Assembly (NCBI RefSeq): GCF_034006445.1
Contig: NZ_JAVESS010000017.1
Span: 1-64,000 of the forward strand
Origin: Desulfovibrio sp.
GTDB lineage: Bacteria > Desulfobacterota > Desulfovibrionia > Desulfovibrionales > Desulfovibrionaceae
Direction of reading: 5' to 3'
DNA: 64,000 nucleotides
Below are positions 3,543-63,883 of the stretch, piece by piece. Below the pieces are notes generated by a model. The model had not been told where the DNA came from. It saw only the letters and a program-made list of their open reading frames with translations, and did not search any database. Each line of letters starts with the position of its first letter. The first letter of the stretch is position 1. Position numbers and translations under genes: made by a program.

Positions 3543-3663
3543 CAGAGCAGATTAGCTTTGAAATGCTTCACATTTCAAAGTGTTCATTCAGCCACGTTGT
3601 GGCGCGCTGCCCTTTTGTGCAGCGTTAGAGCATTTACACTTTTTCAAAGGTAAGATGCTCTAG
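3543..3663. repeat. MITE-like TAGAGCA element, type 2
   Basis: About 120 bp bounded by an imperfect CAGAGCAG left end and TGCTCTAG right end. It contains the palindrome GAAATGCTTCACATTTC, a CGTTGTGGCGCGCTGC segment and an internal copy of the minimal unit (TAGAGCATTTAC...GATGCTCTA). The right end supplies the TAG stop codon (3660-3662) of the repeat protein gene. The paralogous locus at 8068-8075 has only TTCTAG here, which looks like the empty site. Confidence 0.7.
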
Positions 3664-22372: not shown

Positions 22373-22468
22373 GGCGCGTGACAACACGTCTTTCCAGAAT
22401 AAATGTACACTGCACCGGCGCACAGGCAACCGGCCGGGTACGCAGGCTTCAATGGGGGACAAGGGCAC

Positions 22469-25420
22469 ATGCACAGGAACTCCCGCGTCCTGGCGCTTCT
22501 CGCTTGGGTGTTTTTCTGCCTGTTGCAGGCAGCCGCGCCCCTGCTGTCCCATGCCGCCTCACGCACAGTCTGGGTAGGCATCTTTCCTCTTGCAGGCTTT
22601 CACCGCATGGAAAACGGCCATGCCGTTGGCTACACTGTTGACTATCTTGAGCAGGTGAGCAGATATGCCAACTGGCGGGTGGAATACGTTCACTTCGACA
22701 ACTGGCAGGAGGCTGCTGATGCTCTTGAAAAAGAGCATATCGATCTTATGGGCGGCGCCCTCTTCACCCCTGAACGCGGCAAGCGCTTCCTGTACTCCCC
22801 CTACGCCAACGGCACCACCTACACCGCCCTCATCGCACCCAAAGGCACTCCTTTTGCCTATGAAGACTTCAATAACTTCACAGATCTGCGCATAGGCATT
22901 GCCGCAGGAACCCCGTGGCACAAAAACTTTGCCAGCTATGCCAGGCAGCACGGCTTCACGCCGCCGCCGCTCCTTCCGTTCAGGGACCTTACCGCACTCC
23001 GGCAAGCCCTGGCTGAGCAAAAGCTGGACGCCATACTCACTACAGTGACCGCCCTTCGGGATGACGAAGTCATTCTTGCCAAGTTTAATCCCCTGCCCTT
23101 TTTCTTTATCGGCAACCGCTCCAATCACGCCCTGATGGACGAACTGGAACAGGCCATGGCCCAGTTGAAGCTGGAGCAGCCCGACCTGGAAAGCCGGCTG
23201 GCCCATACCCACATGTGGCGCAGCTACCAGACCCCTCTGACCAAGGCGGAACGCGACTTTGTGGCAGAAAGTCCCCTCCTGCGGGTGGGGTTTCCCCCGA
23301 ACCGCAAGCCCATGTCCTGGTTTGACCCTGCAACTGGCGAAGCCAGGGGCATTCTGCCGGATATTCTGCGCCTCATTGGCCGCACCAGCGGCCTGCGCTT
23401 CACCTTTGTGCCTATGAACCTGGGGGACGCAAATCTTGACGAGTACTTTGTGCGCGACAAGATAGACCTGTGCGTCGGGGCCTTGTTCGACCCCTGTGCC
23501 AAGGGCAACCCCGTCTATACGCTGTCCGCGCCCCTGTTGCGCAGTGGGCTCAACCTGTACGGCAAAAATTTTTTTGAAATCCCGCCCGCTACGTCCCTGG
23601 CCGTTGCCCTGCCGCAAAACTGGCTTGGCGGCCGCGCGTATATGGAAACATACTATCCCTCCACGCGCCTGCAATTCTTTGACAGCACAGAAGATTGCCT
23701 GAATGCGGTTGTCGAAAACAAGGCGGACCTGCTGCTGCAAAACACGCTTGAAGTGGATTACCTTCTGACCAGGCCACGCTTTAAAGACATCTCCGCCCTG
23801 CAAGGGTGCAGCGGCATTGAAGAAGCCCGGGTGGGCATTAACGCGACCGTGCCGCCTATCCTGCTGAGTCTTATCAACAAGCAGATCATGGAGGTGGACG
23901 AAAAAAGCAAAAGCCAGATCATTTCCGAAAACATTTCTGCCGTGGCAGGGCCTCTGAGCCTTAAAGACATGGCCTACGAACACCGGACGCTGCTGGCGGT
24001 CACTGGTGAACTGCTGCTCTTTCCCCTGGCCTTTGTTGCCTATGTTCTGTACCTGCGCCGCAAAAATAAAAGCCTCGCCCAAAAGAGTGAACGTCGCCTG
24101 ACCAATATTACCAACAATATCAACGGCGGCGTTATCAGCCTTGCGGCCAATGAACGGCTGGACATCCGCAATGCCAACAGCGGCTTCTGGTACTTGCTGG
24201 ATTATGGCGACAATCCGCCGGAAAAACCGAGTCTTGCCGATTTTATGCTTCCGGCCGAAGCCGAGCATCTGTATCAACGGCTTGAGCAGCAGCGGCAGGA
24301 AAACGCAACCATAAGCATGGAACTGAACCTGCGCCGCAAAGATGGCCTGTGGTTGCCCGCGCTGTTACGGTGCACATGGGCCTGCGATGCGCATGACGCC
24401 GCGCAGCCATGTCTTGATTGCGTTGTCGTTGACATCACCGAACAAAAGCGCATGAACGAGCAGTTGGAGCAGGAAAAAGAACGGTACCGCATCATTCTTG
24501 AGCAATCGCAGGACATCATTTTTGATGTGGACACGGAAAAAGGGCAGTACACCTGTTCGCCAAATTTTTTCAGCAAGTTCGGGCGCGAAGGCACGCCGCT
24601 GTTCGCTCCTGACGGCCGCCCGCGCAATGATCAGGTCGTGCATCCCGACGACCTGCCCGCCCTCGCGGAAATGCGGCGGCGCGTCCGTTCCCGCGAGCGC
24701 ACGGTCTTTGGCGTTATGCGCATTCCCACAGCCCAGGGGCGCTATATCTGGTGTCGGGTGCAGACCACCCGCATCAGCAAAAACGACGCCCCATTGCGCA
24801 TCGTTGGCAAGATCGTGGATATTGACGAGGAGGTGCGCCGCAGGGCGGAGCTGGAGCGTCTTTCGCAACGCGACAGCCTGACTGATCTCTATAACAAAAC
24901 CGCCTTCCGCGAACGGGTAATGCAGAGTCTGCCGGCCACCGTCCTGGACGGCAAAACATACGCCCTGCTTTTTCTGGATCTGGATAACTTCAAGGCCCTT
25001 AACGACAGCCTGGGGCACATTGTGGGTGATACCGCCCTGGCCGAAGCCGCCGATGCCCTCAAGCGTATCTTCCGCAATGCCGATGCCGTGGGGCGCTTTG
25101 GCGGCGACGAATTTTGCGTCTTTGCCATGGGCATTACCCGCAACGCCATAGCCGCGCGGGCAGAATCCGTGCTGCAAGCGCTTTCAATGCATTTTGAGCA
25201 GGACGGCAAGGCCGTGGACATCACCGCAAGTATTGGCATCTATGTGTTTGACGGCAGCGAGACCACCTACGAAGACGCGCTGCAAAAAGCGGATAACGCG
25301 CAATACCGGGCCAAGCAGCTTGGCAAGAATCGCTATGTTTTTCATGATGATCCTCTGACGCTTGAAGAGTTGGCGGCAGCGCAGCAACGAGGGGATGAGC
25401 TGGACGGCTTTGGTTTTTAG
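22469..25420 (+). CDS. Membrane sensor diguanylate cyclase (two SBP3 domains, PAS, GGDEF)
   Basis: 983 residues from the ATG at 22469. This start gives a clean signal peptide (HRNSRVLALLAWVFFCLLQAAA), whereas starting at 22403 would bury it. Two periplasmic solute-binding (SBP_bac_3-like) domains lie at ~30-255 and ~265-490. One membrane segment (~504-530, LLLFPLAFVAYVLYLRRK) leads to PAS-like regions (~540-800, including SQDIIFDVDTEKGQYTCS) and a GGDEF domain (~815-970). The catalytic GGDEF is intact at 878-882, and an RNAD inhibitory-site motif lies exactly five residues upstream (869-872). It should make cyclic di-GMP in response to a small extracellular ligand, perhaps an amino acid. It has no partner gene in the immediate operon. 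An output on the repeat-protein adhesins is only a guess. Confidence 0.9.
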   Translation: MHRNSRVLALLAWVFFCLLQAAAPLLSHAASRTVWVGIFPLAGFHRMENGHAVGYTVDYLEQVSRYANWRVEYVHFDNWQEAADALEKEHIDLMGGALFTPERGKRFLYSPYANGTTYTALIAPKGTPFAYEDFNNFTDLRIGIAAGTPWHKNFASYARQHGFTPPPLLPFRDLTALRQALAEQKLDAILTTVTALRDDEVILAKFNPLPFFFIGNRSNHALMDELEQAMAQLKLEQPDLESRLAHTHMWRSYQTPLTKAERDFVAESPLLRVGFPPNRKPMSWFDPATGEARGILPDILRLIGRTSGLRFTFVPMNLGDANLDEYFVRDKIDLCVGALFDPCAKGNPVYTLSAPLLRSGLNLYGKNFFEIPPATSLAVALPQNWLGGRAYMETYYPSTRLQFFDSTEDCLNAVVENKADLLLQNTLEVDYLLTRPRFKDISALQGCSGIEEARVGINATVPPILLSLINKQIMEVDEKSKSQIISENISAVAGPLSLKDMAYEHRTLLAVTGELLLFPLAFVAYVLYLRRKNKSLAQKSERRLTNITNNINGGVISLAANERLDIRNANSGFWYLLDYGDNPPEKPSLADFMLPAEAEHLYQRLEQQRQENATISMELNLRRKDGLWLPALLRCTWACDAHDAAQPCLDCVVVDITEQKRMNEQLEQEKERYRIILEQSQDIIFDVDTEKGQYTCSPNFFSKFGREGTPLFAPDGRPRNDQVVHPDDLPALAEMRRRVRSRERTVFGVMRIPTAQGRYIWCRVQTTRISKNDAPLRIVGKIVDIDEEVRRRAELERLSQRDSLTDLYNKTAFRERVMQSLPATVLDGKTYALLFLDLDNFKALNDSLGHIVGDTALAEAADALKRIFRNADAVGRFGGDEFCVFAMGITRNAIAARAESVLQALSMHFEQDGKAVDITASIGIYVFDGSETTYEDALQKADNAQYRAKQLGKNRYVFHDDPLTLEELAAAQQRGDELDGFGF

Positions 25421-25439
25421 AGTAGCTACGCTTTTTCTA

Positions 25440-26250
25440 GGTCAATCCGCTCCAAGGCACTTATATTTTTGAATTTTTGTGTGGTCGCCCGCGCAGGGGA
25501 CGGTGTGTTTGGGGTAGGCGCGGCGGGCGCTCTGGAGAAAGTAAGGCAGGGCTTGTCCTTTGAGAGGAGGCTTGTGTGCCCTGCGGGCACGGAGGCTTTT
25601 CCTTATTTTAGTTTGGGCCGCCTGCGGCGGGCGGCAGATGGATGGGCTTGCGCTGTTGGTATTCCTTGAGAGAATGAAGCAGGGCTTGTCCTTTGAGAGG
25701 AGGCTTGTGTGCCCTGCGGGCACGGAGGCTTTTCTTTTTTGTTGTTTGGGCCGCCTGCGGCGGGTGGAGTGTTTGGGGTAGGCGCGGCGGGCGCTCTGGA
25801 GAAAGTAAGGCAGGGCTTGTCCTTTGAGAGGAGGTTGCTGTGCCCTGCGGGCACGGGGCCTTTTCTTTTATGTTGTTTGGGCCGCCTCCGGCGGGTGGAG
25901 TGTTTGGGGTAGGCGCGACGGGCGCGCTGAGGAAAGCAAAGCAGGGCTTGTCCTTTGAGAGGAGGTTGCTGTGCCCTGCGGGCACGGAGGCTTTTCTTTT
26001 TATGGTGTTTGGGCCGCCTCCGGCGGGGGCAGATGGGGGCCTGTTAGGGGCTGCCGCCCCTCCGAGGCCCCCTCTGCACTCCCCCCGGACGACCCCGCCG
26101 GGCTTGTCGTATATCCCCACTCCCACGGGATAGCCCTCAAGGGCTTTCCATCTCCCAACATTCCGCGAGGGCTGCGCGGCTTTTGCTCCGGGAGCTTCCT
26201 CGCTACGCTCGGCGATCTCCCTCCGCGCCGCGCAATGCCAGCGTAAGGTC
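25440..26250 (+). repeat. Non-coding palindromic repeat island, forward half
   Basis: Four units start at 25546, 25679, 25810 and 25941 (GCAGGGCTTGTCC), with a period of 131-133 bp and a partial unit before them. Each contains GAGAGGAGG, the palindrome GTGCCCTGCGGGCAC, a T-rich run and the palindrome GGCCGCCTGCGGCGG. A GC-rich module follows (26020-26250) ending in CAATGCCAGCGTAAGG. Because 131 is not a multiple of three, short frames crossing the units are not conserved as protein. I see no gene. Confidence 0.85.
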
Positions 26251-26357
26251 TCGCCCTGAATGAGAGCCAGTGAGTGCATTTCGTTGGCTGTATTGAATTT
26301 TAAGGATGACGTCCGACTGCTGGTAATAGGTCGTTGTGCTGATGATTTTGCCGCGTG

Positions 26358-26512
26358 GCTAGGACAGATTAACTTTGAAATGCTTCACATTTCAAAGTTT
26401 TCATTCCTCCGAAAAATACGACATGCGACTGAATCCGCGCTACGTTGTGGCGCGCTGCACGTCCGCACAGCCTTAGAGCATTTACACTTTTTCAAAGCTA
26501 AAATGCTCTAAT
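26358..26512. repeat. MITE-like TAGAGCA element, type 2
   Basis: Starts at CTAGGACAGATTAACTTTG and ends AAAATGCTCTAA. It contains the GAAATGCTTCACATTTC palindrome, CTACGTTGTGGCGCGCTGC and the minimal unit TAGAGCATTTACAC. It sits between the two halves of the repeat island. Confidence 0.7.
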
Positions 26513-26544
26513 ATTGCTGTCACGCGGGCAACGCACTCAAGTCT

Positions 26545-28080
26545 GTGCTGCTTCTCAGGCAGGGCGCGGGCGAATGCCGGGGGCGGCGTCATAAAGAACC
26601 GAAGCCGACACGTCGGCGAGGTTCGTGCGTAGCCGCCCCCGAAAAAAGGAAATTGTTGGTCAGGGTTGGACAGGGGGGTGCTTCGGGGGGGATGCAAGGG
26701 GGGCCGAGAAGGGGGCGCAGCCCCATAACCGGCCCCGCCTTGCCGCACGCCGCGCAGGCGGCCAAAACAGCATAAAAAGAAAAGCTCCCGTGCCCGCAGG
26801 GCACAGAAGACAACTCTCAAAGGACAAGCCCTGACTTTCTCTAGTTGTGCCAGCACAAAAACCTCATCTCAACATCGCCCGCCGAGGCGGCCAAAACAAC
26901 AAAAAAGAAAAAGCGCCATGCCGCAGGGCACAGAAGACTTTTTCAAAGCCAGCCCCAAGGCTCAACCCTTCCATCATTACGTGGCGTCCTTAACAACCAG
27001 GCATCATATTTGAGACTTCCTACAGCCGACAATACGCCTTTGCGGATATTCATTCAGCGCGAAGGCGCACGCTGGCATTGCGCGGCGCGCAGGGAGATCA
27101 CCGAGCGAAGCGAGGAAGCTCCCGGAGCAAAAGCCGTGCAGCCCTCGCCAATCTGCGATCATTGGAAAGCTCTGGGGGGTAAACGGGGGGGAGTGCAGAG
27201 GGGGCCTCGCCAGGGGGCGCAGCCCCCTTCACAGGCCCCCTCTGCCCCCGCCGGAGGCGGCCCAAACGAAATAAATGAAAAGTCCCCGTGCCCGCAGGGC
27301 ACAGAAGACAACTCTCAAAGGACAAGCCCTGACTTTCTCTAGCTGCGCCAGCACAAAAACCTCATCTCAACGTCGCCCGCCAAGGCGCCAAAACAACAAA
27401 AAAGAAAAAGCGCCGTGCCGCAGGGCACAGAAGACTTTTTCAAAGCCAGCCCCAAGGCTCAACCCTTCCATCATTACGTGGCGTCCTTAACAACCAGGCA
27501 TCATACTTGAGACTCCCTACAGCCGACAATACGCCTTTGCGGATATTCATTCAGCGCGAAGGCGCACGCTGGCATTGCACGGCGCGCAGGGAGATCCCCG
27601 AGCGCAGCGAGGAAGCTCCCGGAGCAAAAGCCGTGCAGCCCTCGCCAATCTGCGGTCATTGGAAAGCTCTGGGGGGTAAACGGGGGGAGTGCAGAGGGGG
27701 CCTCGCCAGGGGGCGCAGCCCCCTTCACAGGCCCCCTCTGCCCCCGCCGGAGGCGGCCCAAACAACAAAAATGAAAAGCCCCCGTGCCCGCAGGGCACAC
27801 AAACCGCACCTCAAAGAACAAGCCCTGCTTAGTTGTCTTTAGAGTGCCCGCTGCGCGAGTCCCCGCCTTGCCGCACGCCGCGCAGGCGGCCAAAACAGTA
27901 TAAAAAGAAAAGCTCCCGTGCCCGCAGGGCACAGAAGCCTCCTTTCAATGGACAAGCTCTGCTTTGCTTTCCTCAGAACACCTGCCTAGGTGGCCAAAAC
28001 ACCATAAAAAGAAAAAGGCCCCCCAACGGAGAGCCTTTACACCCCCTGCGGGGTACCACCCCTACGGGGCACAAACAATC
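26545..28080 (-). repeat. Non-coding palindromic repeat island, inverted half with ~498-bp tandem duplication
   Basis: The modules of 25440-26250 recur here in reverse orientation. CAAAGGACAAGCCCTG or variants occur near 26818, 27318, 27812 and 27947, each next to GTGCCCGCAGGGCAC. The composite 26841-27338 is duplicated at 27340-27838 with an offset of about 497-499 bp and small differences. The module containing CACGCTGGCATTGC occurs twice. GGGGGCGCAGCCCCC hairpins are frequent. No frame here has a convincing start, composition or family resemblance. Confidence 0.85.
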
Positions 28081-28119
28081 ACTCGAAACAAAAAACTTTT
28101 CTATGCCAGCGCGGAGCGC

Positions 28120-28596
28120 TTATTTCCACAAACTGCTGTACTTGGCGGCAATGCCGTCAGTGCGCTCCACAAGCCTGTCTACGAGCCCGTCCACATCTTC
28201 ATAGTTGATGGTCCCAAGATCACGGGCCAGCAGATACCCAAGATACCCCTTGCCCTGCTTGAAAACCCAGCACACGGAATACACTGACCCCACACCGGGG
28301 CGGCTGGAAAATTCCGGCTTGGTTTCAACCATGACGTAGAGCTTGGGCACGTCTTTTTCTTCATCATCATTCAGGGTGAAGAGGCTGCTTTTATTGAAGC
28401 GTTCCTTCAGATTTGTGCCCAGGCGCGCGCCAATGCTGTCCGTGCCATCAAGGGTCACGCTTACAACCGTCACGCGGTCCGCGCCTTTTTCGGGTTTGTC
28501 CTGAACGGGCTTGCCCGCCTGAGGCGTAGCGGCCATCGCTGCACCAGCCATCGTCAATGCGCAGAACAGGGCCAGAATGCCAAAAAATTTCTTCAT
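28120..28596 (-). CDS. Exported hypothetical protein
   Basis: 158 residues from the ATG at 28596, which follows GAGGTGAAAGGC; the longer frame from 28650 would place extra residues before the signal peptide. The signal peptide is MKKFFGILALFCALTMAGAAMA with a probable AMA-A cleavage site. The mature part (~136 residues) has a VTVVSVTLDGTDSIGARLGTN strand-turn region, VPKLYVMVETKPEF and GYLLARDLGTINYEDVDGLV, suggesting a small alpha/beta periplasmic domain. No lipobox cysteine is present. I do not recognise a named family. It stands alone between the repeat island and the MocR-type regulator. Confidence 0.8.
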   Translation of the reverse strand: MKKFFGILALFCALTMAGAAMAATPQAGKPVQDKPEKGADRVTVVSVTLDGTDSIGARLGTNLKERFNKSSLFTLNDDEEKDVPKLYVMVETKPEFSSRPGVGSVYSVCWVFKQGKGYLGYLLARDLGTINYEDVDGLVDRLVERTDGIAAKYSSLWK

Positions 28597-28763
28597 GCCT
28601 TTCACCTCAACATGCGGAGTGTATGACAGTTTCTGACCCTGCCAGCCCATGCGGACGCGGCGTCAGGACATATCTTTCTTGAGTCTATATAAAGTTTAGA
28701 AAAAAGAAAAGCGCCAGCATCCGGCCAAAGCGGATTGCCTTTGAAATATGCGCGTTCAGCGGA

Positions 28764-46037: not shown

Positions 46038-46079
46038 CCTTTCCTCTCTTTATAGAAGTTGGCAGCGTTCATGCCTCTG

Positions 46080-46257
46080 CTCTGACGTTGCACGTTCGTG
46101 CAGCGCCACAACGTGGGGTGGATGCAGCCGAGCTTTAGCCGTTGCGACGGAGAAAGCCACGGATAAAGCTCTGCTGAATAAACATTTTGAAATGTAAAGC
46201 ATTTCAAAGTTACTATGATCTAGAGCAGTTAACCAATTACATGGGCTAACTGCTCTA
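46080..46257. repeat. TAGAGCA-family elements: reverse type 2 plus a minimal 37-bp unit
   Basis: 46080-46215 carries, in reverse, the CGTTGTGGCGCTGCACGAACG and TTTCAAAATG/CATTTCAAAG parts of type 2, interrupted by extra sequence (GAGCTTTAGCCGTTGCGACG). 46221-46257 is TAGAGCAGTTAACC...GGCTAACTGCTCTA, only 37 bp long, almost nothing but the two inverted ends. Confidence 0.7.
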
Positions 46258-58441: not shown

Positions 58442-58561
58442 TAGAGCAGATTAACTCTGAAATACTCCACATTTCAAAGTTTTCATTCAGCCACGTTGTG
58501 GCGCGCCGCACGTTCGTGCAGCATTGGAGCATTTACACTTTTTCAAAGTTAACATGCTCTA
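58442..58561. repeat. MITE-like TAGAGCA element, type 2
   Basis: Begins TAGAGCAGATTAAC, ends TTAACATGCTCTA, and is flanked by C before and T after. Internal parts match 3543-3663 and 26358-26512. Confidence 0.8.
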
Positions 58562-63806: not shown

Positions 63807-63860
63807 GAAGCAGATTAACTTTGAAATGCTTTACATTTCAAAGTTTTCGTTCAGCCGATA
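63807..63860. repeat. TAGAGCA-family fragment, type 2
   Basis: AGCAGATTAACTTTGAAATG followed by CTTTACATTTCAAAGTTTTC matches the left half of the type 2 elements and stops before the CGTTGTGGCG part. It lies in the divergent promoter region of the AraC-like gene. Confidence 0.7.
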
Positions 63861-63883
63861 AATGCAGTTTTCGACGGAGCAGC

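Follow-up and report, generated by a model that had tools for sequence, protein, structure and literature searches.

Islands of composite palindromic repeats with a two-sided layout in Desulfovibrio

Layout of the repeat island

The window, a stretch of 64,000 nucleotides from a Desulfovibrio sp. genome, contains a 2.7-kb gap between a diguanylate cyclase gene and a convergent gene for a protein that is conserved in other Desulfovibrio and has no Pfam or NCBIfam match. The gap is filled by a repeat island (25.5-28.0 kb; Table 1). Profile searches divide the island into four module types and an unrelated element, T. Module A is a conserved core of approximately 100 bp within a unit of approximately 132 bp, and modules C, B and D measure about 90 bp, about 150 bp and about 77-95 bp, respectively. 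The resulting module string is A> A> A> A> C> B> (T) D> C< A< (A<) B< C< A< (A<) B< C< A< A<, in which a bracketed A is degenerate. Taken together with the next C and A, the D module can instead be read as the inner end of a reverse module of the order A-C-D.

Table 1. Coordinates of the modules, hairpins and flanking genes at the island
Feature	Position	Strand	Remarks
Left flank: SBP_bac_3-PAS-GGDEF diguanylate cyclase gene	22403-25420	+	directed into the island
Four-unit forward A array	25536-26031	+	units 25536-25635, 25669-25767, 25800-25898, 25932-26031
Forward C module	26026-26119	+	long hairpin GCAGATGGGGGCCTGTTAGGGGC...GCCCCTCCGAGGCCCCCTCTGC; fold z -4.1
Forward B module	26153-26309	+	GAGGGCTGCGCGGC...GGGAGCTTCC...GGCGATCTCCC...GCCGCGCAATGCCA; profile match
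T element in the island centre	26359-26511	+	TAGAGCA...TGCTCTA; dispersed repeat outside the island grammar
D module	26560-26655	+	central hairpin; fold z -5.2
Reverse modules	26671-26948	-	C 26671-26745, A 26742-26842, degenerate A 26875-26948
Reverse composite	27004-27445	-	B 27004-27158, C 27157-27248, A 27243-27339, degenerate A 27372-27445
Reverse composite, second tandem copy	27501-27971	-	B 27501-27656, C 27659-27744, A 27739-27839, A 27871-27971
Terminator-like hairpin of the right-hand convergent gene	28014-28038	-	ordinary; not part of the repeat grammar
Right flank: gene for a 176-aa protein	28120-28650	-	directed into the island

A preliminary description of this DNA had recognized four forward units, at least four inverted units, a tandemly duplicated composite of approximately 498 bp, and a large imperfect inverted repeat overall, and all four statements are borne out. 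Direct repeats starting at 25493, 25626, 25757 and 25888 (spacing 133, 131 and 131) define the four forward units of approximately 132 bp; the forward starts given earlier correspond to the CAGGGCTTGTCC motif at 25547, 25680, 25811 and 25942, and are off by one base. Four inverted A units are well preserved, and two further ones are degenerate. The composite recurs as 26890-27189 and 27387-27686 with 98% identity and a spacing of 497, and the opposing half arms are 76-90% complementary over 60-150 bp. The unit described earlier is A alone, one of the four module types, and modules B, C and D had not been told apart.

The T element, approximately 150 bp long and MITE- or terminator-like, is bounded by TAGAGCA...TGCTCTA and has at least 41 dispersed copies in the genome. 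Elsewhere in the window, it lies at 3544-3662, 46075-46222, 58442-58561 and 63810-63882. The earlier idea that this element splits the island is incorrect; it is rejected as a divider, being an unrelated, independently dispersed repeat that is lodged in the centre.

Two frames within the island (26845-27342 and 27501-27932) have no Pfam family match and run across the repeats, and protein coding by the island is therefore rejected. Rfam covariance models give 0 matches at E <= 1, and comparisons with plasmids and phages also give none, in agreement with the earlier statement that no gene family or phage signal explains the island.

Hairpins and compensatory changes

In each forward A unit, a T-rich tract comes directly after a GTGCCC-TGC-GGGCAC hairpin, and the unit is a terminator-like structure aimed into the island. 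Module A, a GC hairpin with a TGC loop and a T-rich tail, has the sequence form of an intrinsic terminator, and 13 terminator-like sites are found within 25300-28200, compared with 5.4 +/- 2.4 in shuffled sequences. The isolated A hairpin folds with a z-score of -2.7, and those of C and D are lower still (Table 1). In the case of the whole A unit (z -1.1) and of B (z -0.4), the fold is not better than in shuffles. Two-sided compensatory changes occur in 2/3 pairs of A (GC/AU and CG/UA). In B, compensatory G-C/A-U changes are present in 6 sequences and swaps of the C-G/G-C type in 9, and in C, compensatory U-A/G-C changes are present in 12 sequences. These pair counts are supportive of conserved hairpins, not conclusive, as related copies inflate them. 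The paired changes fit RNA as well as DNA.

A structured-RNA locus, proposed in the preliminary description, thus receives limited support from the paired changes in A, B and C and none from Rfam. It is highly improbable that transcription of the islands yields a stable, structured and independently functional RNA. The strong C and D hairpins and the compensatory changes accord with such an RNA; however, Rfam matches are absent up to E = 1, consensus promoter matches are weak, inward A terminators at both edges would limit transcription of the interior, and orthologous islands differ strongly in content.

Distribution and module grammar of the islands

The genome that contains the window (G000; 3.5 Mb in 44 contigs) yields 58 matches to a 400-bp A query, spread over approximately 19 places. 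It holds approximately 19 islands of a common grammar, of which the island in the window is one. All exact 15-base A cores (GTGCCCTGCGGGCAC) in this genome (44/44) are situated inside islands or in one collapsed remnant (C18), and the backwards-read pattern of the core, used as a control, has 0 occurrences. This distribution contradicts a dispersal of single units over the majority of gene ends, the case named earlier as one that would reduce the island to a chance cluster. The earlier suggestion of an accumulation hot spot for a repeat is upheld. An assembly artefact or a chance cluster of an ordinary intergenic repeat can be virtually dismissed: several contigs of the draft do end in the repeats (C7 and C15), but the same loci carry islands in the complete single-contig genome G079 and in others, and A cores are absent outside islands.

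Beyond this genome, most other members of the genus lack the exact A core, the B module is present in 16 of 79 same-genus genomes, and a few other genera of the family give weak C or B matches. The islands range from 0.5 to 3 kb, and their copy number varies among species. In the literature searched, which excluded most subscription journals, these repeats are not described in Desulfovibrio.

The islands follow a common grammar, A(n)-C-B or A(n)-C-D inward from each edge, often with the D hairpin in the centre. Among 37 two-sided islands, drawn from five genomes and from six more distant genomes that were pooled, 36 are convergent, with every forward module ahead of every reverse one; the sole non-convergent island sits at a contig end. 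Own-strand successor counts are 120 for A-C, 114 for C-B, 89 for A-A and 42 for B-A, and all other orders together amount to 15. In the distant members G013, G041, G042, G044 and G071, nearly all of the examples examined are one-sided A-C-B modules with a far diverged A, and G047 and G020 provide two-sided examples with D. A run of short GCTGTGGTTCAGCCAGGCA-type repeats adjoins a one-sided island at L041 (6060-6650).

Gene neighbours

The islands are flanked by unrelated ordinary genes, including flgM, ruvC, cyclophilin, cbiC, dinB, aroC, metK, ribB, rlmN and rimM/fpg. In 15 islands with both neighbours resolved, 7 gene pairs are convergent, 8 are co-directional and 0 are divergent; the 7 to 0 ratio of convergent to divergent gaps corresponds to p = 0.016 if both gap types are equally likely. 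The neighbours were called from ORFs, codon composition and family matches, and the call is weakest for the gene to the right of L029. At the co-directional locus L030, one of the A arrays looks onto a promoter region, not a gene end; therefore, not every array can be the terminator of its neighbour. As a full account, terminators of convergent genes only are rejected, since the islands L030, L034, L037a/b, L038 and L039 are two-sided between same-strand genes.

Conserved positions and exchanged contents

For nine islands of the window's genome, the two flanks map together to a single G079 locus with an island or its remnant, and flank identity at the shared loci is mostly 88-96%. In G047, with neighbouring genes 82-91% identical, islands exist at the same loci beside cbiC, a PHP gene, a decarboxylase/saccharopine-dehydrogenase pair, dinB, an FAD/Fe-S gene and the L043 pair. 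G020 has the decarboxylase and rlmN loci in common.

In eight orthologous islands of G000 and G079, the flanks are far more alike than the contents, and the orthologous island is the best match for only 66 of 229 matched 150-bp windows. With regard to concerted evolution at the level of the genome, pairwise identities within the same genome and those between orthologues are close to each other. The best C pairs between species are 97-100% identical, above the 82-91% of the neighbouring genes. The travel of modules between islands would be explained most simply by ectopic recombination or gene conversion.

Four islands of G000 contain rearrangement junctions: the flanks of L034, L037a, L037b and L038 map to separate or inverted islands in G079. 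These rearrangements are read from one genome pair (the 44-contig draft G000 against G079), with junctions tallied at islands alone. L037b and L038 join sites near 1.52-1.53 and 1.76-1.77 Mb of G079, about equally far from the origin. The ribB neighbourhood of G047 is G079-like, and the G000 order is therefore probably the derived one. A clear crossover point is not visible inside the rearranged islands because their modules are mosaic.

Some loci carry a remnant in place of an island. At L043 (6336-6419) of the window's genome, only the outer halves of one forward and one reverse A are present, fused to each other at the hairpin, and the counterparts in G079 and G047 are full islands (compared with L076 and L143). 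The most plausible reading of the fused sequence is that a deletion between the two opposing hairpins left one chimeric A, a natural palindrome-mediated collapse. The reciprocal case exists at the ruvC locus (L086), where G000 has a full island and G079 has one A.

In Desulfovibrio sp. STF2_171, the site of the window's island is a gap of 205 bp that contains a single bare TGTTGTGCCCTGCGGGCACAACA palindrome; in two other Desulfovibrio, it is a gap of 340-460 bp with no palindrome. At these island-less sites (L060, L062 and L064), the edges are too diverged for base-level alignment, and no target-site duplication is recognized. Next to the window's island, Desulfovibrio sp. MES5 has an additional gene together with an AT-rich stretch, as if inserted there (L059, 2673-4040).

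In foldback-type elements and MITEs, a variable centre is enclosed by long inverted arrays at the two ends, and the opposing A arrays at both ends of an island resemble such terminal inverted repeats. The islands could be copies of a mobile foldback-type element with the module arrays as long terminal inverted repeats and a transposase acting in trans, an origin that we regard as unlikely. The two-sided symmetry is independent of neighbour orientation (L030 and L039 have same-strand neighbours), copy number varies among species, and the orthologous 205-460-bp gap lacks the island in other Desulfovibrio. However, no target-site duplication is recognized, the island edges fall within repeat units, the array number is variable, and the window's genome contains no Y1 transposase/RAYT. 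The positions common to species at 82-91% coding identity, moreover, look more like those of old residents than of fresh insertions, and unlike foldback elements and MITEs, the islands are not AT-rich.

Position relative to the origin

The GC skew of G079 changes at the dnaA-dnaN-gyrB-gyrA cluster (1.64-1.65 Mb), and 19 island positions centre near this cluster (V-test, p = 0.0008; p = 0.008 once near neighbours are merged). In G020, also a complete genome, 12 islands centre near the matching dnaA homologue (p = 0.005), with the origin presumed from the gene match alone. The two results are not independent because both genomes share loci. G042 and G045, with mostly one-sided modules, display no origin bias. 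Clustering at the terminus, first suspected from a dnaA homologue at 2.876 Mb, was rejected when the dnaA-dnaN-gyrB-gyrA cluster at 1.65 Mb and the flip in GC skew reversed the assignment. G079 contains two dnaA homologues (L091, 7619-9145, and L156, 13427-15067): one lies in the dnaA-dnaN-gyrB-gyrA cluster at the skew flip, and the second, the stronger Bac_DnaA match, lies 1.2 Mb off, near a NiFe hydrogenase gene.

The origin-centred positions in G079 and G020 would suit protein-binding arrays of the nucleoid or condensin type, in which the palindromes act as binding sites for the organization or segregation of the chromosome half around the origin, and so would the high identity of C across species relative to neighbouring genes. 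Such a role is nevertheless quite unlikely, given that the bias is absent in G042 and G045 and the two biased genomes share loci, that most genus members lack the modules, and that the paired changes suit RNA equally.

Comparison with known repeat systems

Composite palindromic repeats are known in enterics, Neisseria and streptococci. In the case of BOX of Streptococcus pneumoniae, 125 single-sided copies of 67-637 bp follow the order boxA-boxB(n)-boxC (PMC3049150). The resemblance of the Desulfovibrio islands to BOX is one of layout: both are composite and non-coding, with a fixed module order, a variable-number tandem module, strong hairpins and an excess between convergent genes. The order A(n)-C-B combines several module types in a fixed order with a variable tandem module, as in BOX. 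Unlike BOX, the islands measure 0.5-3 kb, number approximately 19 per genome, mostly consist of two opposing half-islands, and are built from different, GC-rich modules.

REP and BIME comprise 20-40-bp palindromic units tagged GTAG or CGTC; the GTAG types are tied to RAYT, the CGTC class has no dedicated RAYT, and roles in termination and supercoiling are suspected (PMC3733652). The islands share with them the clustering of extragenic palindromes by gene 3' ends, mostly in convergent or same-strand gaps. Compared with REP, the modules are larger (90-150 bp), and the A stem has no GTAG or CGTC tag in an alignment of 56 hairpin copies. The window's genome contains 0 matches to RAYT (PF01797), and membership in the REP/RAYT system is rejected on both the tag and the transposase.

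SPRITE of S. pneumoniae is a simple, short, AT-rich, terminator-like interspersed repeat near the 3' ends of convergent genes (PMC3049150). Module A is likewise terminator-like and interspersed at 3' ends and between convergent genes, but it is arrayed and embedded in a composite. The island is not an integron attC array, with no known-family ORF between its tandem units and attC core motifs judged by eye. In the literature searched, no repeat family with two opposing half-islands and a strict grammar was found. Within the broad class of composite interspersed repeats, the islands constitute a new family whose layout is two-sided.

Proposed origin and function of the islands

With rather better than even confidence, we consider the islands to be a new BOX/BIME-like family of composite palindromic repeats that would act as inward-facing terminators and as substrates for ectopic recombination. 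Each A unit may be an intrinsic terminator, so that an island would stop transcription coming in from either side. If the A units are terminators, the islands would therefore be tolerated at gene 3' ends, and not between divergent promoters. The repeated inverted modules would allow islands to grow through tandem duplication, with modules swapped among islands by ectopic homologous recombination or gene conversion. Genes between islands could be inverted or moved via the shared modules, and deletion between opposing A hairpins could collapse an island. Against this explanation, a hairpin that fits the consensus does not by itself prove termination, the spread of modules among loci needs copying, and no transposase or target-site duplication is identified.

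Rather than a dedicated machine, the islands probably represent a repeat that was kept passively and has acquired terminator or insulator work. It is very unlikely that they are maintained as origin-centred two-way barriers and exchange points, in which inward terminators and hairpins would isolate domains, and shared inverted modules would allow recombination between any two islands so that gene blocks are inverted or moved with the genes undamaged.

If the family of terminating and recombining repeats is confirmed, it would offer a natural system to watch repeat islands keep their place while their contents exchange, and a means to gauge the effect of palindromic intergenic repeats on the order of the bacterial chromosome. 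The islands also account for some of the assembly breaks in draft Desulfovibrio genomes.
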